A stretch of DNA of 34,077 nt from Lachnospiraceae bacterium (GTDB lineage Bacteria; Bacillota; Clostridia; Lachnospirales; Lachnospiraceae), in contig JAGBBW010000055.1 of assembly GCA_017938285.1 (NCBI GenBank), positions 1 through 34,077 on the forward strand. Direction: 5' to 3'. This document shows, in pieces, positions 15,136 through 23,949 of the stretch. The notes beneath the pieces are model-generated. The model saw only the letters and a list, made by a program, of their open reading frames with translations. It searched no databases and had not been told where the DNA came from. Position numbers and translations under genes: made by a program. Each line of letters starts with the position of its first letter. Position 1 is the stretch's first letter.

Positions 15136-15164
15136 TTGCAATTTTTGATATCATGGTATATAAT
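15136..15164 (+). promoter_or_regulatory. Promoter of the RNA unit upstream of the DUF3800 gene
   Basis: TTGCAA (15136-15141) and TATAAT (15159-15164) are separated by exactly 17 bases. The predicted start is near 15171, and a rho-independent terminator lies less than 100 bases downstream. Confidence 0.75.
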
Positions 15165-15170
15165 ATATTT

Positions 15171-15267
15171 GCAGGTAGAAATACGCTGTATACTCATGAT
15201 ATCGAATTAGCGTTTAAGCGATATGTAATATCGTCGATCATGAGGCCACCGTTTGGGTGGCTTTTTT
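15171..15267 (+). ncRNA. Candidate structured RNA, DUF3800-associated
   Basis: A short transcription unit of about 97 bases with promoter and terminator and no ORF. CTCATGAT (15193-15200) pairs with ATCATGAG (15237-15244). CGA (15203-15205) can extend this with TCG (15234-15236) across a two-base bulge. Inside it CGATAT/ATATCG (15219-15233) forms a six-pair hairpin with a GTA triloop. The outer helix is directly followed by the terminator stem GCCACC/GGTGGC. Comparative work (Weinberg and colleagues, 2017) described several conserved RNA motifs named DUF3800-I to -XI near genes of this protein family. I infer that this is a member or relative. No alignment was made. Confidence 0.65.
15245..15267 (+). 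terminator. Terminator between the RNA unit and the DUF3800 gene
   Basis: GCCACC and GGTGGC form a six-pair stem around GTTTG, followed by six T. It lies about 40 bases before the DUF3800 start codon, so it ends the RNA or acts as an attenuator for the gene. Confidence 0.85.
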
Positions 15268-15308
15268 ATTTTTAAACAGTTTAATGAATATGAAATGAGG
15301 ACTTTAGT

Positions 15309-16004
15309 ATGAATGTTTATGTTTATTCGGATGAGTCCGGAGTTTTTGATAAGGAACATAATGATTATTTTGTTTTTGGAGGCCTGATTCTTCTGGGAAC
15401 AGAAAGCAAAGAGAACTGGTCAAGAAAGTATTCCAGTGTTGAAAAGATTCTCCGGGTGAATAAAGGGGTTACTGCTGATTATGAGTTAAAAGCTACACAA
15501 GTAAGCAATAAAGAAAAAGGAAAGTTATTCAGAGCTCTAAATGGTTGTTATAAGTTTGGTGCTGTCATAAACGAAAGCAGAGTGCTTGATAGAATATATT
15601 TGAGTAAGAAGGATAAGCAGCGTTATCTTGATTACGCATATAAAATCGCAGTAAAGAGAGCATTTGAAAATCTTATTCAGAATAAAGTAATTAATTCGGA
15701 TGAAGTAGAACGTCTCTTTTTCTATGTAGATGAGCATACAACAGCAACGAATGGACAATACGAACTGCAGGAGGCATTGGAACAGGAATTTAAGCTCGGG
15801 ACATATAATTCTAAGTATGATACATATTATCCACCTATATTTAGAAAGATGAAGGATGTTAAATTAGAATACTGCAATTCGGCTTCAAAATTATTGGTTA
15901 GGGCGGCAGATATTGTTGCAAATAAAATATTTTATCTGGCACGAAATGAAAAAGAACAAGAATTAAAAGGTATACAGAACCTTACGGTTACGTATCTGCC
16001 ATAA
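15309..16004 (+). CDS. DUF3800 domain protein (putative RNase H-fold nuclease)
   Basis: This 231-residue protein carries the DUF3800 hallmark at its start: VYVYSDESG with Asp8-Glu9. The middle acidic pair is FYVDEHTT (Asp141-Glu142), and the C-terminal helix is SASKLLVRAADIVANKIF with Asp201. This acidic set fits an RNase H-like active site. The family is widespread in mobile and defence-type contexts and its function is unknown. TGAGG precedes ATG 15309. The gene is more AT-rich than the upstream genes, which suggests transfer. Its 5' region holds a promoter-RNA-terminator unit, so expression may require read-through or the RNA may work with the protein. A bidirectional terminator follows. 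Confidence 0.88.
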   Translation: MNVYVYSDESGVFDKEHNDYFVFGGLILLGTESKENWSRKYSSVEKILRVNKGVTADYELKATQVSNKEKGKLFRALNGCYKFGAVINESRVLDRIYLSKKDKQRYLDYAYKIAVKRAFENLIQNKVINSDEVERLFFYVDEHTTATNGQYELQEALEQEFKLGTYNSKYDTYYPPIFRKMKDVKLEYCNSASKLLVRAADIVANKIFYLARNEKEQELKGIQNLTVTYLP

Positions 16005-16013
16005 AAAAATCCA

Positions 16014-16074
16014 CAGCCACCGTCCCAAAGAACGAGGAATACTTTTCCGGGTTCTTTGGAACGGTGGCTGTTTT
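16014..16074. terminator. Bidirectional terminator between the DUF3800 and XRE genes
   Basis: CAGCCACCGT..CCAAAGAAC pairs with GTTCTTTGG..ACGGTGGCTG, about 19 pairs with one small mismatch and a 17-base loop. TTTTATT follows on the plus strand and a run of seven T on the minus strand. It separates two converging genes. Confidence 0.9.
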
Positions 16075-16453
16075 ATTCTTCACGATGTTTCATGGATTCA
16101 ATAAATATTTCCAGCATACGCAGGGCGTAGTCGTATTCCCGTTCCGTACAATGTTCCAGTAAACAATCCGCAGTGGTGCGTCTGATACCGGCAGTTACCG
16201 GTTCCTCCGGTTCATTTGTTATATTCCCCAGACCAAACATCATATAATCCAGATTCAGTTTCAAGTGTTGTGATATGGCAAGCATGGTTTCAACAGACAT
16301 GCCGCATGTACCGCGTTCGATATCAGAGTAGTATTTTGTGGCACGGTCAATCCGTTCTGCCAGCTGGTCCTGGGACAGGCCAAGGCTGAGACGGCGCTGC
16401 TGAATGCGTTCTCCAACGATATAGCGGTCATAGGTTTCCTTCTTTCAATTCAT
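16073..16453 (-). pseudogene. XRE-family (HTH) regulator with an in-frame stop at codon 3
   Basis: Read from ATG 16453 this 126-codon frame has a helix-turn-helix (about 13-50, with GERIQQRRLSLGLSQDQLAERI and YYSDIERG), then SVETMLAISQHLKLNLDYMMFG, and a C-terminal tail. That is the usual plan of small Lachnospiraceae XRE regulators. AAGGAG lies seven bases before ATG 16453, but the frame reads ATG AAT TGA, so the third codon is a stop. The next in-frame ATG is at 16300, after the helix-turn-helix. It is therefore inactive, starts at a rare codon, or is read through. A fresh mutation is likely, because the rest is intact. It is divergent from the TnpB-like gene. Confidence 0.72.
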
Positions 16454-16648: not shown

Positions 16649-16677
16649 TTGACATCTGTTGAAAAATGTAATATGCT
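16649..16677 (+). promoter_or_regulatory. Promoter of the TnpB-like gene
   Basis: TTGACA (16649-16654) and TATGCT (16672-16677) are 17 bases apart. The -35 is perfect. The -10 directly abuts a 16-base inverted repeat, so anything bound there would block the start site near 16684. Confidence 0.7.
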
Positions 16678-16722
16678 AGTCGTGTTTAAAACGTAAATAT
16701 GGCGTTTTAAACACGACTTTTT
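16678..16722. repeat. 16-bp perfect inverted repeat over the transcription start
   Basis: AGTCGTGTTTAAAACG (16678-16693) and CGTTTTAAACACGACT (16703-16718) are exact inverted repeats with a nine-base spacer and T-rich sequence behind. The core TGTTTAAAAC is the same as in the palindrome at 16559-16573. It overlaps the predicted start site of the promoter before it, so it is more likely an operator than a terminator of this transcript. For transcripts entering from further upstream it could act as a terminator. Confidence 0.8.
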
Positions 16723-16777
16723 AAAATTAGACCAGTTGTAAATAATAACTGAACTGAGCAGGTATGGCAGGAGCATA

Positions 16778-18049
16778 ATGGAACATGTAAAAAAAGAGCA
16801 GACAGGACATTCCATCCTGAGATACAGGGTGCGGTTATATGACCGGCATTTTGACTGGCTAAAAATAACCAGACAATTATATCAGAATACGGTCCAGCAT
16901 TTTTTTCATGTGCTGGAATCAGAAAAAGAACTGCTGGAGCTTTCCAATTTTCTTTTGCTTCGTGCCTTGGAAGAGCGTTGTATCGGAACAAAGCAGATGA
17001 AAGCAGAAGGCCAGTCTCCATCTTATCCGCTGCCTGTTACACCAAAGATTCCGCTCTATTTCCGGCGGTCTGCCATCAATACGGCAATTGACCTTGCCAG
17101 AAAACAGGCAGAATCCATGGAACCCCATATGGTGTTTTATAAAGGAATGTACCGCAGCTTTACCGATACTTCGATTGAACTGAAACTGTATAACGGTGAA
17201 AAATGGGTCTGGGTTACCTATCCGTTCACTGGGAGAACGTTTCCAGAGGAAGCAGTCCGTCTGTCGCCAATGCTGGTTCTTGATAAGAAAACGGCATGGC
17301 TGGAAGTTCCATTGTCTTTTGAGGTAAAGGATATCCGTACGGTCCGGGAACGAATGCAGACGGAGAAACAGATCTGTGCAGTGGCTTTTCCGGATAATGA
17401 TACTCTGGCAGTGGCAGTACTTCTGGAGAGAAATGGAAAAGAAATAAACCATCATTTTTTCCGGGGTGGCAGGGAGAGAGAGGAACAACGCCGGCGGCTG
17501 TTGGAGAGAATCCAGAAAAGCGAAGAAAGCCGTGGAATGGAAGGACAGCCGGGAGCCAGGAAAGAAAATACAAAAGCGTATCGTTCCTTACAGGAAATCA
17601 ATTCCCATTATGCCCATGTAATCAGCAGGCAGATTCTGAATTTTTGTCTGGAACACGAGATTAAAGTAATCGTTGTGCCAAATTATGAAACCAGTATAGA
17701 TTTTCGTGATAAGAAATACCTGAAAACCAATGCATACCGCTGGCTGGGCAGAGCGATTATAAAAAATCTGAAATACAAGGCATTTCAGAAGGGAATTGTG
17801 GTAACGTCTGTCCGTCCCTATCATATTTCAGACTGCTGTAGTGAATGTGGTGCCAGAATCCGCAGATACAACGAAGGTCACACCGCTGGTCAGAAGTATG
17901 TTGGAGGGAAATTATTCCAATGTCCCAATGGACATAAAGGAAACACTGCCCACAATACAGCCAGAAATGTGGGAAAGAGCTTCCTCAGGTTTTATCCGGA
18001 GGAAGCAGGAAATGAAAGTTCATCATGCCGTGATACAGCGCAGGACTGA
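16778..18049 (+). CDS. Nuclease-dead TnpB-family protein (TldR-like)
   Basis: This 423-residue protein has the TnpB/OrfB plan. An N-terminal helical part (ILRYRVRLY, then helices to about 115) is followed by a beta domain (about 117-190) and a RuvC-like part. The RuvC-II end LKYKAFQKGIVVTSVRPYHIS leads into a zinc ribbon CSECG (354-358) and CPNGH (382-386). All three catalytic acids are absent: the RuvC-I GIDLG site reads AVAFP (201-205), the RuvC-II Glu is Pro301 in VIVVPNYE, and the RuvC-III Asp is Ala391 in TAHNTARNV. No tnpA or IS ends are seen. Nuclease-dead TnpB homologs (TldR) are known RNA-guided repressors; that role here is inferred. It heads the glycan locus. Confidence 0.85.
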   Translation: MEHVKKEQTGHSILRYRVRLYDRHFDWLKITRQLYQNTVQHFFHVLESEKELLELSNFLLLRALEERCIGTKQMKAEGQSPSYPLPVTPKIPLYFRRSAINTAIDLARKQAESMEPHMVFYKGMYRSFTDTSIELKLYNGEKWVWVTYPFTGRTFPEEAVRLSPMLVLDKKTAWLEVPLSFEVKDIRTVRERMQTEKQICAVAFPDNDTLAVAVLLERNGKEINHHFFRGGREREEQRRRLLERIQKSEESRGMEGQPGARKENTKAYRSLQEINSHYAHVISRQILNFCLEHEIKVIVVPNYETSIDFRDKKYLKTNAYRWLGRAIIKNLKYKAFQKGIVVTSVRPYHISDCCSECGARIRRYNEGHTAGQKYVGGKLFQCPNGHKGNTAHNTARNVGKSFLRFYPEEAGNESSSCRDTAQD

Positions 18050-18130
18050 CAGGACTGCTGCTGTTGACACATAAATTTATTATGCGGTAACGACATGCAG
18101 TGGATTTTTTGTAAAAAAGGTTCACTTGGT

Positions 18131-18243
18131 ACAGCACCGCCAGTCTTTGACAGTCATCCAGAGGATGGGACAGGAGCTCTGACGCAGGTCAGGGAAACTG
18201 CTTTGCCACGGACGAAGAAAAGCCGGAAGGCTTAGTTGTGCTG
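18131..18243 (+). ncRNA. Candidate structured RNA after the TnpB-like gene
   Basis: The 260-base gap between the TnpB-like gene and the first glycosyltransferase has no ORF but several helices. CAGCAC (18132-18137) pairs with GTGCTG (18238-18243) and closes the whole element. Inside are CATCC-AGA-GGATG (about 18155-18167), CTGAC-GCAG-GTCAG (about 18179-18192) and AGCC-GGAA-GGCT. It does not match riboswitch classes I know. Guide RNAs of TnpB and TldR proteins come from just this position, at and after the 3' end of the gene, so a guide RNA is one option. A leader element of the glycan operon is another. Confidence 0.5.
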
Positions 18244-18310
18244 GGAGTTGTAAAAATAAGTATCATAGCTGGCTCTGGAAGACAGCAGAATGAAAGAATG
18301 GAAAGAAATT

Positions 18311-19405
18311 ATGAACATTGCAATAGTCAGCTGCTTCGTTTCCAACGATATGCGTGTGAAAAGTGTATATGAGTTTTTTGTGAAACGGGGCTATTTGGTT
18401 ATTGTATATGAATCAGATTTTATACATATGAAGAAATCATACCGGGATGCGCCTCCGGAAAATTACCGGTATGTGCCTACCCGGTTTTACAAAAAGAACC
18501 TGTCCGTGGCAAGACTGGTTTCCCATGCGGAATTTTCCCGCGATGTGGTAAAGCAGTTGGAGCAGTACCAGCCGGAACTGATATATGCCCTGGTGCCGCC
18601 GAACTCGTTAGTGCGGGATCTGGTGGATTATAAAAAGAAACATAAGGCACTGCTGCTGTTTGATGTCATTGATTTGTGGCCGGAATCCCTTCCGGTCAAT
18701 GTGCCGTCCAGTGTGTTTCCACTAAGAAACTGGAAGAATTTAAGAAATAAGTACATCAATGGGGCAGATTATGTTATTACCCAGTGTGACCTGTACCAGA
18801 CCATTTTTCCGGTTGTACCGGAAAAGTGCAGGACCGTGTATTTCTGCAGGGAAATGCAGAACAGAACGCCCTGTGGAAGCAAGAAAGCCGGAGAACTGGA
18901 CCTTGCCTACCTTGGCTCGATTAATCACCTGATTGATATTGACCGGATTGGTGCAGTGGTCAGGGAACTTGCCAGACAGTACCGTGTTACGGTGCATGTG
19001 ATTGGAAACGGCAGGACAAAAGAACAATTCATAAACACACTGAAAGGACAGGGAGCCGTGGTGGAATTTTACGGGGAGGTTTACGAACCGGAAAAGCTGA
19101 CCGGGATACTGTCACAGTGTGATTTTGGTATTAATATTTACAAACCGGAAACCCGTATTGGAATGACCATGAAAAGCATGGACTATTTCTGTAATAACCT
19201 CCCGGTGCTCAATGCCATTCCCCATGATACGGAACGGCTGGTCAACCGGTACAATGCAGGAATTAACCTGAAGGACTTTTCCCTTGAAGCAGTGGAGCAT
19301 TATCGGAACACACAGTCACGTATTGAGGAACTGGTGGAAACGGAGCTTTCGCCAAAAGCATTTGAGCGGAAGATGGAGGCGATTCTGGCAGAACTTGGGC
19401 TGTAA
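18311..19405 (+). CDS. Glycosyltransferase, GT4-like (GT-B fold)
   Basis: This 364-residue cytosolic glycosyltransferase has an N-terminal Rossmann part starting MNIAIVSCFVSNDMRV and the middle segment LLLFDVIDLWPESLPVNVP. In the C-terminal part, LAYLGSINHLIDIDRI and HVIGNGRTKEQF mark the nucleotide-sugar side. IYKPETRIGMTMKSMDYFCNNLPVLNA is the equivalent of the GT4 donor-binding helix. The sugar is unknown. The frame also has ATG 18290; homologous proteins begin at MNIAIV and GGAAAG lies six bases before it, so 18311 is chosen. It is the first structural gene of the polysaccharide locus, with no clear promoter of its own. Confidence 0.82.
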   Translation: MNIAIVSCFVSNDMRVKSVYEFFVKRGYLVIVYESDFIHMKKSYRDAPPENYRYVPTRFYKKNLSVARLVSHAEFSRDVVKQLEQYQPELIYALVPPNSLVRDLVDYKKKHKALLLFDVIDLWPESLPVNVPSSVFPLRNWKNLRNKYINGADYVITQCDLYQTIFPVVPEKCRTVYFCREMQNRTPCGSKKAGELDLAYLGSINHLIDIDRIGAVVRELARQYRVTVHVIGNGRTKEQFINTLKGQGAVVEFYGEVYEPEKLTGILSQCDFGINIYKPETRIGMTMKSMDYFCNNLPVLNAIPHDTERLVNRYNAGINLKDFSLEAVEHYRNTQSRIEELVETELSPKAFERKMEAILAELGL

Positions 19406-21865: not shown

Positions 21866-23194
21866 ATGAAAATCAGAAAATCCATCGTTTTTATTGCGAT
21901 ATGTATGATTCTTTGCACTGTGGCAGGATGGTTCTTATGTGAAAACCAGCTGCTGAATAGAGAATCGGAATATACACAACGGAACTATTCTCTGGAGGAA
22001 ATCCAACTTCTGAATCAGGAGTTGACAGAAGAAGGCCTGAGAGCAGGAACTGACCCGCAGATAGTACTGGATAGTGTAAATGCTTATGTGGAAAACATCT
22101 GTCTGACCGGATTGCAGTTTCAAGAGGATGTCCAGATATTCTACACGGAGCAGGAAGAGGAAGTCTTTTCAGAAGCGAAGAGTATTGTGCTTGTACCGGA
22201 AAAAGCAAAGGCAGGAGGACTTCTGTCACTGGAGAAACAGATCGTAGACCTGCGTATTGACTTTACCGGGGCAGAAGGAAGAGTTTATCCTCTGGAGGGG
22301 GTTGTGCTGAATCCGGCCCGGTACGTGGAATGGAGCGTGGGTGTGGGAATCCTTTCCGCCCTGGCAGGTGGAGTTCTTGGCGTGTGCCTGTACTTCCTTC
22401 TGAAAGAAGGAAAGAATTTCAGAATTTATTTACAGGTACTGAAAAAATACCGTTTCCTTCTGGAAGATATGGTAGTCCGTGATATTAAGCTGAAATACCG
22501 CCGTTCCGTCATCGGACTTTTGTGGAGTATTTTAAATCCGCTGTTGATGATGGTGGTTATCACCGCAGTATTCCAGAACCTGTTCCGGTTCGAAATTGAG
22601 AACTTTGCCGTGTACTACCTGACCGGCTGGGTGGTGTTTAACTTTATAACGGAAGCAACCTCCGGTGCCATGACTTCCATTATGGGAGCCAGTGCACTGA
22701 TACGGAAAGTGTATATCCCAAAATACATTTTTCCAATGCAGAAATGTATTTTTTCCTTTGTCAACATGCTGTTTTCCTTAGTGGCACTGTTCGTGGTCAT
22801 GCTGGTGCTTAAAGTGGAATTTACCTGGAATCTGCTGCTGATTCCAATACCGTTGGTTCTGGCACTGGTATTTTCCATTGGACTTGGTATGATTCTGTCC
22901 ACGGTGGCGGTGTTTTTCCGTGACATGATTCACCTGTATGGCATTTTTACCATGGTGTGGATGTACCTGACTCCGATTATTTACCCGGAAGAAATTTTGG
23001 TGGGAGCAATGCAGACCATCATGAAGATGAACCCAATGTATTATTACGTGGACTACTTCCGGCAGCTGACCCTGTACGGAACCCTGCCGGGGGTGGAATC
23101 CCTGCTGGTAATGTGCGGCTGTTCCGTCATCAGTCTGCTGCTGGGTGTTGCCGTGTTTAAGAAAAAACAGGACCGTTTCATCCTGTTCATTTAA
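21866..23194 (+). CDS. Polysaccharide ABC transporter permease with an N-terminal outer domain
   Basis: This 442-residue protein has an ABC-2 permease of Wzm/TagG type in its C-terminal 260 residues, beginning YRFLLEDMVVRDIKLKYRRSVIGLLWSILNP and ending near FKKKQDRFILFI with six helices. Ahead of it is an extra module: a membrane helix (about 7-25), an outer region (about 26-150) and a second helix (about 153-178). Usual Wzm/TagG proteins lack this. The plan of helix-outer domain-helix recalls Wzz-type chain-length regulators, but I see no sequence match. With the next gene it exports the finished, lipid-linked polymer. No start alternatives compete with ATG 21866. Confidence 0.88.
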   Translation: MKIRKSIVFIAICMILCTVAGWFLCENQLLNRESEYTQRNYSLEEIQLLNQELTEEGLRAGTDPQIVLDSVNAYVENICLTGLQFQEDVQIFYTEQEEEVFSEAKSIVLVPEKAKAGGLLSLEKQIVDLRIDFTGAEGRVYPLEGVVLNPARYVEWSVGVGILSALAGGVLGVCLYFLLKEGKNFRIYLQVLKKYRFLLEDMVVRDIKLKYRRSVIGLLWSILNPLLMMVVITAVFQNLFRFEIENFAVYYLTGWVVFNFITEATSGAMTSIMGASALIRKVYIPKYIFPMQKCIFSFVNMLFSLVALFVVMLVLKVEFTWNLLLIPIPLVLALVFSIGLGMILSTVAVFFRDMIHLYGIFTMVWMYLTPIIYPEEILVGAMQTIMKMNPMYYYVDYFRQLTLYGTLPGVESLLVMCGCSVISLLLGVAVFKKKQDRFILFI

Positions 23195-23214
23195 GAAAGG
23201 GTTTGAATGAAGAA

Positions 23215-23949
23215 ATGGCGAATGCGATTGAAATAAATGATGTGACAATGAAATTCAATATGTGCCGGGAGCGTATTGACAACATGAAGGAATATCTGGT
23301 CAAGTTCCTGAAAAAACAGCTGATGTACGAGGAATTCACAGCACTGGAGCATGTGTCCGTGAAAATAAAAGCAGGGGAAGTCTTCGGTATCGTAGGTCTG
23401 AACGGTTCCGGCAAAAGCACCCTGTTAAAGCTGGTGTCCGGCATACTGAAACCGACCACCGGAACGGTCCGCACCATGGGAACAATCTCCCCTCTGATTG
23501 AACTGGGTGCCGGATTTGATATGGAGATGACCGCAAGAGAAAATATCTTTATGAATGGTTCTGTATTGGGTTATTCCAGGGAATTTATGAAAGAAAAATT
23601 TGATGAAATTATAGAGTTTGCAGAACTGCAGGACTTTGTGGAAGCACCGCTGAAAAACTTTTCCTCTGGTATGGTGGCAAGGCTGGGATTCTCCATTGCG
23701 ACCCTAGTGAAGCCAGAGATACTGATTGTGGATGAAATTCTGGCGGTGGGAGATTTCCTGTTCCAGCAGAAATGTGAGAAGAGAATACAGGAGATGATGA
23801 GCGGTGGAACAACGGTACTGATTGTGTCCCATTCGATTGAGCAGATAGAGAGATTGTGCAACCGGGTAATGTGGCTGGAGAAGGGGCATGTGAAGATGAT
23901 TGGTGAGACGGAAGAGGTATGTGTGGCGTATAAAGGAAATGTCAGATAG
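23215..23949 (+). CDS. Polysaccharide ABC transporter ATP-binding protein
   Basis: This 244-residue ATPase (Wzt/TagH type) has Walker A GLNGSGKST (61-69), the signature FSSGMVARLG, Walker B ILIVDEILAVGD and the switch His in IVSHSIEQ. The N-terminal segment FNMCRERIDNMKEYLVKFLKK is typical of the polysaccharide subfamily. The C-terminal glycan-binding domain found in some Wzt proteins is absent, so export is likely independent of a terminal cap. A TTG at 23203 lies one base from AAAGGG, too close, so ATG 23215 is used. It ends the GC-normal part of the locus; the next genes are much more AT-rich. Confidence 0.93.
   Translation: MANAIEINDVTMKFNMCRERIDNMKEYLVKFLKKQLMYEEFTALEHVSVKIKAGEVFGIVGLNGSGKSTLLKLVSGILKPTTGTVRTMGTISPLIELGAGFDMEMTARENIFMNGSVLGYSREFMKEKFDEIIEFAELQDFVEAPLKNFSSGMVARLGFSIATLVKPEILIVDEILAVGDFLFQQKCEKRIQEMMSGGTTVLIVSHSIEQIERLCNRVMWLEKGHVKMIGETEEVCVAYKGNVR

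Follow-up and report, generated by a model that had tools for sequence, protein, structure and literature searches.

The 34,077-nucleotide stretch of DNA analysed here (the window) encodes a full-length TnpB/Cas12f-like protein in which all three RuvC acids are gone, and which is very probably a conserved, non-cutting RNA-binding regulator. The explanation that we favour, and regard as probable, is that a TnpB without catalytic activity was domesticated into a TldR-type protein and takes part in RNA-guided regulation of surface-polysaccharide loci. In gut-type Clostridia, several copies of the gene, each with a guide-like RNA at the head of a sugar-coat operon and many of them behind an on/off DNA switch, suggest RNA-guided help in choosing the surface coat. 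The TnpB-like gene lies just upstream of its own omegaRNA-like scaffold, which would carry a short guide at its end, and both precede the first glycan gene. The features of the window are:

16073..16453, minus strand: divergent frame of an XRE-type regulator, interrupted by a stop at codon 3
16649..16677, plus strand: promoter-like TTGACA-17-TATGCT upstream of the gene (consensus match only)
16679..16717, no strand: perfect 15-bp inverted repeat with a 9-nt loop just after the promoter; putative 5'-leader hairpin or operator
16727..16745, plus strand: leader site TTAGACC-AGTTGTAAATAA, a TAM-like motif and nine nt equal to the putative guide start at 18246; putative target
16778..18049, plus strand: nuclease-dead TnpB/Cas12f-like gene (Pfam, profile, alignment)
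18128..18245, plus strand: omegaRNA-like scaffold core; closing stem 18132-18137 with 18238-18243
18246..18268, plus strand: hexamer AGTTGT (18246-18251) and variable stretch; putative guide
18290..19405, plus strand: first glycan-operon gene behind the RNA, glycosyltransferase-like by eye, no Pfam match at 1e-5
21866..23194, plus strand: ABC-2 type polysaccharide exporter membrane subunit (PF01061)
23203-23949: ABC ATPase-like ORF after the exporter subunit (by eye)

A TnpB/Cas12f-like protein without its catalytic acids

The ORF at 16778-18049 (+) is real and encodes a full-length TnpB/Cas12f-like protein of 423 amino acids. It matches the Pfam family Cas12f1-like_TNB over its cut-off (E = 6e-9), scores under the cut-offs of NCBIfam Cas12f2 (63 of 450 bits) and guided_TnpB (50.8 of 100 bits, the cut-off for naming a TnpB), and reaches a best E of 1.4e-7 in a profile search against solved TnpB and Cas12f proteins. 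The original prediction had placed Ala203, Pro301 and Ala391 where the RuvC acids should be, and this is borne out when 48 full-length members are aligned to three outgroup TnpBs, of which two (G751 and G216) carry Asp, Glu and Asp at the three columns and the third, unaligned at column I, has Glu and Asp at the other two. None of the 48 members has an acid in any RuvC column (at column II, 46 have Pro and the other 2 have Ala), and five further proteins from genome G1137 lack all three acids as well, with Pro in column II. The Asp/Glu/Asp triad of the active TnpB nuclease is absent from the window protein and from every aligned member: it is lost in 53 of 53 aligned full-length relatives, 51 of which have Pro at column II. 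These 53 are made up of 48 of the 53 tabulated copies and the five G1137 proteins; dropped from the alignment were five tabulated copies, three of them incomplete (G019, G139) and two with stops (G139C28 and G755C36), and the truncated G758 was left out. Loss of the triad is uniform among the aligned members, and intact Asp/Glu/Asp, the finding named beforehand as contrary to a dead nuclease, occurs in none of these relatives.

A profile alignment with solved Cas12f/TnpB chains agrees on motifs II and III, motif I lying outside its coverage. The AlphaFold2 model of the window protein (two input sequences; mean pLDDT 66, pTM 0.47) puts A203 and P301 each at a strand end and A391 at the start of a helix. 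Foldseek ranks Cas12f chains highest among PDB entries for this model (E = 2.7e-11) and gives 1.8e-7 for TnpB 8iaz, but with TM-scores of only about 0.3 and an rmsd of about 22 Å the model gives no precise superposition on TnpB/Cas12f. The zinc ribbon is kept, as predicted, with a Cys/His pattern that is invariant in a seven-sequence alignment (C354-x2-C357 ... C382-x3-H386); on this pattern, the last zinc ligand would be a His. No tnpA-like ORF was recognised by eye among the window ORFs.

The genes mostly head polysaccharide operons and are under purifying selection

Downstream of the window gene lie glycosyltransferase-like ORFs (by eye) and the ABC-2 exporter (Pfam), and the other copies too mostly head glycan operons, in two families (assigned partly by Pfam and for the remainder by eye). 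We found the next ORF for 50 of the 53 tabulated copies and scanned ten of these next genes with Pfam. Nine are of glycan or NusG type, comprising eight glycosyltransferase, polysaccharide-synthesis, sugar-nucleotide, fucose-activation or aminotransferase proteins and one NusG-like protein that is LoaP over its cut-off (G728C26); the tenth, the window's own, has no Pfam match. The remaining next genes are mostly glycan genes by eye, and the neighbourhood deviates or is unclear at G770C51a, G738C109b, G755C10, the convergent G001C31 and the reversed G283C8. The constant neighbourhood that had been anticipated is therefore largely real, at polysaccharide operon heads in two families, and the copies are not scattered pseudogenes.

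LoaP-type antiterminators follow the tnpB-like gene at some loci (L173 6361-6924, identified by profile, and the next genes of G728C20 and G734C10), which makes two kinds of regulator per operon head there. DUF3800-I RNA and DUF3800 protein form a known RNA-protein pairing of unknown function, and such a pair sits 0.8 kb before the TnpB-like gene of the window, with the RNA (Rfam RF02969, 101 bits) at 15164-15271 (+) directly before the DUF3800 gene (Pfam PF12686) at 15309-16004 (+). The XRE-type frame, stopped at codon 3 in the window, has a relative in G002 that is open and has an HTH domain.

Two more copies lie in the window genome, one on contig C15, which matches at 69% over its first part, and one on C35, at 42%; contig C128 ends with the start sequence of the C15 copy. 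This makes three copies in the window genome, compared to at least five in the single-contig G1137, which belongs to another family and whose fifth copy was a chance find. In the family, order and class surveys, up to four candidates were scored per genome, such that the numbers of copies are minima. Matches, counting the own genome, occur in 4 of 98 relatives, 10 of 397 genomes of the family (including the intact outgroup G216), 7 of 392 of the order (two of them outside the family of dead proteins), 15 of 60 of one genus (including the intact outgroup G751) and 4 of 391 of the class (two outside the family or doubtful). In 20 of the 40 listed most similar pairs, those with computable dS, dN/dS is 0.06-0.14; where one partner is the window protein, synonymous sites have reached saturation (pN 0.18-0.20, pS 0.82-0.85).

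We also considered that the genes might be decaying insertion-sequence relics without function, as a few copies are indeed damaged: a stop interrupts G139C28, G755C36 is split and G724C3 lacks a recognisable scaffold. Purifying selection, covariation in the RNA described below, the constant neighbourhood and the presence of several copies per genome all speak against decay, and we regard this explanation as extremely improbable.

Several candidates were placed outside the family. In the weakly matching G583 and G597, there is no R1 match and tblastn found nothing like the window protein; G860 matches only in part and contains a stop, G833 apparently keeps the acids at motifs I and II, and G216 and G751 keep all three. 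The search for a mobile carrier gave none: 17 pattern matches among viral contigs included no relative, and the 40 plasmid and 2 phage records were all below 60% identity, with none covering 80% of the protein.

A covarying omegaRNA-like RNA follows the gene

The order of elements 3' of the stop codon is the same in each scored copy: GG-N2-P1-C(G/A)CC, a variable part, P1', 2 nt and a hexamer, which is AGTTAT, AGTTGT, AGGTAT or AGATAT, with AGTAAT in two copies and a degenerate form in one. In the RNA, the window hexamer reads AGUUGU, and the commonest form elsewhere is AGUUAU. In an alignment of 26 copies built from motif-selected stretches, the six-pair closing stem P1 reaches 99.3% pairing, and each of its six pairs shows double changes (0 of 500 shuffles); sliding the partner by 1-3 columns lowers the pairing to 20-54%. 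In raw downstream sequence, the strict motif (stem, 2 nt and hexamer) is found in 50 of the 53 copies, compared to none of 2650 resampled sequences and a single one of 1000 real windows. The copies without it are G724C3, G755C36 and G177, the last of which has a stem of five pairs.

A covariance model found the 26 members and one partial match in 504 kb of loci and recovered 25 of the 26 from 12 whole genomes, where no orphan or extra scaffold appeared among the candidates scored (up to 150 per genome). The fold of the window RNA is better than those of shuffled sequences (z = -2.6; 2 of 200 were as good), and the RNA has no match in Rfam at gathering scores. RNAalifold (A2) returned only four local pairs, and since the closing stem was not among them, it was named by hand and counted. 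Reverse complements of the hexamer's 5-mers are depleted in the upstream scaffold (8 of 51 copies, compared to 17.9 expected from mononucleotide shuffles), while that of the full hexamer occurs in 3 of 51 copies (2.9 expected); this gives a weak hint that the hexamer stays free of scaffold pairing.

TnpB omegaRNAs are structured 3' RNAs that end in a variable stretch, and by its position and layout the downstream RNA looks like a retained TnpB omegaRNA plus guide. Purifying selection together with a strongly covarying RNA at the copies supports retained RNA binding on computational grounds. The earlier argument that loss of the acids in an intact protein reflects selection for binding without cutting thus gains computational support from dN/dS and from the RNA.

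The position of this RNA raises the alternative that the protein is a cis-acting RNA regulator, which would bind leader RNA and control elongation or translation into the next gene much as an antiterminator does, with no DNA targeting and with the hexamer as part of an RNA site. The RNA does lie directly before the first glycan gene, 15-40 nt from its start in several copies; LoaP, a known antiterminator, follows in G728C26; the hexamer is uniform per lineage irrespective of what follows it; and the stretch after the hexamer is A- or T-rich and often resembles a ribosome-binding region. We nevertheless consider this explanation unlikely, because the hexamer with its TAM-like motif recurs in leaders that lack the RNA, because the fold and the RNA belong to the RNA-guided TnpB/Cas12f group, and because the gene and RNA of G283C8 are reversed relative to the glycan operon.

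Candidate target sites in leaders of glycan operons

If RNA-guided regulation by a dead TnpB is the correct explanation, the RNP would bind DNA, without cutting it, where a TAM-like (T)TRGAY motif precedes AGTTAT or AGTTGT in the 5' leader of certain tnpB-like genes or of another glycan operon, and transcription would be hindered at these sites. The hexamer is plausible as the guide seed, given that it recurs behind a (T)TRGAY-like motif in the gene's own leader at the window, C35, G002, G304C9, G304C33, G646a, G646b, G720C4a, G764C25, G764C20, G764C1 and G770C79. In the window leader (16727-16745), nine nt are identical to the putative guide start. Both the window and G002 have AGTTGT at scaffold end and leader, with AGTTAT mostly found in other copies, and C35 is mismatched (AGTTAT in the leader, AGTTGT in the scaffold). 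From these sequence matches, the window RNP would act at least on its own leader and on that of its paralog C35.

We searched six genomes with the exact pattern TTRGAYAAGTTAT and found 11 matches, compared to 2 for the reversed control. Four lie in leaders of the genes, one just behind the RNA of a G139 copy and two in coding sequence. Of the remaining four, three precede CapD-like genes of EPS operons (G304, G646 and G139; Pfam confirmed one of these genes) and one precedes a glycosyltransferase gene (G283:C16). When the search was extended to 60 genomes from a single genus, TTRGAYAAGTTAT had 22 matches, fewer than the reversed control (40), but their distribution differs: 18 fall in the 14 family-bearing genomes and 4 in the 46 others, compared to 8 and 32 for the control, and the pattern is present in 8 of 14 family-bearing genomes and 4 of 46 others (P = 0.0004). 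Nine of the 18 are leaders of tnpB-like genes themselves; the rest comprise six in EPS operons, one 0.8 kb before a sugar dehydrogenase gene and two near no recognised glycan gene. The site can also exist without a detected copy, since two of the four matches in the 46 other genomes precede glycan genes.

Other searches were less discriminating. The looser pattern TTRGAYNAGDTRTNA showed no enrichment in nine genomes (27 matches; 51 for the reversed control), most matches being in coding sequence, with those at G283:C16 (two) and G342:C160 preceding glycan-like genes, and a one-mismatch pattern in G000 gave 3 matches compared to 4 for the control. Contiguous guide-site matching exceeded permutation over 12 genomes (P = 0.011) but not with the window's genus removed (P = 0.27), and 16-nt guide-site identity was not above permutation (P = 0.30). 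Since the permutation signal stems from the window's genus, we lowered the weight of the coat-exclusion reading given below and took this limit into account in grading the explanation that we favour. In G1137, the hexamer is AGTTTT in 5 of 5 copies, all of which carry AGTTTTAAAT, and none of the 15 other exact AGTTTTAAAT places in this genome is behind a TTRGAY motif in a glycan leader. A look for element ends at the G751 copies showed that 4 of 5 end alike in GAGGTTCAC, but they are too unlike the present family to set its scaffold boundary or TAM.

A simpler form of RNA guidance would be autoregulation, in which each RNP acts only on its own leader. The window's guide start does equal its own leader over nine nt, yet no more than about a dozen of the 53 tabulated copies have a leader site, which is also carried by glycan operons that lack the gene. 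Moreover, in one genus the guide continues with AA after the hexamer in 0 of 9 copies with a leader site compared to 13 of 22 without (P = 0.004, uncorrected for relatedness), such that the site-bearing copies have guides that diverge right after the hexamer; the window, which matches its own leader, is an exception to this rule. We consider autoregulation alone improbable. The original prediction of a nuclease-dead, TldR-like protein in a glycan context is supported by the loss of the triad, the RNA and the linkage to operon heads, with target evidence that is partial overall and negative in G1137.

Invertible promoters ahead of about half of the copies

Among the copies with at least 400 nt upstream, 23 of 47 have inverted repeats of 20-49 nt around a segment that ends at most 260 nt from the gene start, compared to 1 of 188 control windows from downstream. 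The 49-nt pair at G019C5 is another kind of repeat, but a 34-nt pair is present there too. Further inverted pairs occur at G283C11, G283C8 (around the whole gene), G304C33 and C128/C15, the last with a tyrosine recombinase gene between the repeats. When 16 pairs of copies were compared, 4 had the segment in opposite orientations while the flanks were colinear, best in G764C20/C1 (371 nt, 97%), and in G1137 the L228 segment is reversed relative to the other four loci. A sigma-70-like promoter in 25 segments, scored without a control, matched better toward the gene in 7, away from it in 16 and equally in 2. One of three G646 copies (G646b, with no repeat pair found) has a promoter toward the gene, and in G1137 the promoter of the reversed L228 points toward the gene and that of L226 away, with L225 and L249, ambiguous by score, assigned by homology. 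Repeats around a promoter and both orientations, the hallmarks of a phase-variable inverton, are found among the relatives and not at the window locus, where the upstream search returned no inverted repeat pair and where palindromes and the promoter at 16649-16677 are present.

These repeats suggest a different role, in which the RNP would act on the invertible switch itself by blocking or steering its recombinase. Inverted repeats do adjoin the leader site, and tyrosine recombinase genes lie beside three copies; on the other hand, no inverted pair accompanies the gene at the window locus, C35, G002 and further loci, and the sites found are outside the inverted segment. Such a role seems to us very improbable.

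To our knowledge, the choice among several capsule loci in Gram-positive gut commensals is poorly known. Under the favoured explanation, the gene sits behind an invertible promoter at about half of the relatives' loci, where the comparisons show the inversion, and an ON locus would make coat and RNP together. Tentatively, and with less confidence than in RNA-guided regulation as such, we suggest an RNA-guided exclusion system for surface coats in Clostridia, in which every polysaccharide locus would have a dead TnpB and a guide of its own and the RNP from an ON locus may act on shared leaders of the TTRGAY-AGTTAT type in other glycan operons, such that one coat dominates. The pattern consistent with such exclusion is an apparent ON state in 1 of 3 loci in G646 and 1 of 5 in G1137 (both single-contig genomes) and longer guide matches in copies without a leader site (in one genus).

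We also noted several structural peculiarities of these regions. TGGTCA/GTGGTCA repeats, always on one strand, occur in the invertible segments of two families (L225-L228 and L249 in G1137; L054-L056 and L068-L070 in the G304 genus) and are perhaps accessory sites of the recombinase or of a regulator. At L050 10011-11656 (G283C8), a 29-nt, 97% inverted repeat encloses the tnpB-like gene and RNA, reversed to the glycan operon. Several copies in G019 (L022 6245-6627, L023 and L025) are preceded by a dispersed element's inverted repeats, which are long and nested (about 50 nt, 82-98%). The window-genome assembly breaks at the inverted repeat before the C15 copy (L018 4627-5542, L016), and the C128 and C15 ends share the start sequence, as would be expected of a switch in mixed orientation.

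Comparison with known systems

TldRs were reportedly introduced in a Nature paper of 2024. According to the available part of PMC13418256, one TldR can repress with a guide of no more than 6 nt and uses a 6-nt seed; csrA-tldR loci in gut commensals include four copies in an Oscillibacter genome with predicted fliC cross-targeting, and have hin genes with inversions upstream; and TnpB inactivation is said to be recurrent. Compared to the fliC- and csrA-linked TldRs as described in that part of PMC13418256, the present family is alike in the lost RuvC acids, the full length, the gRNA-like cassette beside the gene and the linkage to non-transposon surface-structure genes, and shares with csrA-TldRs the several loci per genome and the DNA inversions upstream; it may also share the cross-targeting predicted for csrA-TldRs. 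It differs from that description in that its partners are polysaccharide operons rather than flagellin, its switches look like tyrosine-recombinase invertons rather than Hin, and its RNA ends in a lineage-shared hexamer. We read the family, likened to TldRs by their published description, as best explained by a new TldR-type clade on surface-polysaccharide loci. If so, a transposon nuclease has been turned into a locus-specific coat regulator with a ready-made RNA, tied at many loci to DNA inversion; natural RNA-guided transcription control would reach beyond flagellin to surface polysaccharides and would rely on shared guides of very small size; and coat switching would become testable on short, defined DNA sites. 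Among top-ranked literature results, with most subscription journals and preprints outside the scope, we found no paper on a TnpB-derived regulator of polysaccharide loci.

With active IS200/IS605-type TnpB the family shares its domain architecture and a structured 3' RNA with a variable end, but it lacks the catalytic acids, has no tnpA (by eye) and is chromosomal at fixed operon heads. Cas12f chains and nuclease-deactivated Cas12f (PDB 9n9c series) are the best Foldseek matches, with a weak profile match to 9n9c (E = 0.027), but no sigma-factor gene was seen by eye beside the present family. LoaP/UpxY-type antiterminators and phase-variable capsule loci are known from Bacteroides, and phase-variable capsule loci are described from Eggerthella lenta in the available part of PMC13174815. 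The present loci resemble such systems in that a regulator heads multi-copy polysaccharide loci with DNA inversion; those systems use NusG paralogs or large inversions, whereas the present regulator is TnpB-derived and comes with its own RNA.
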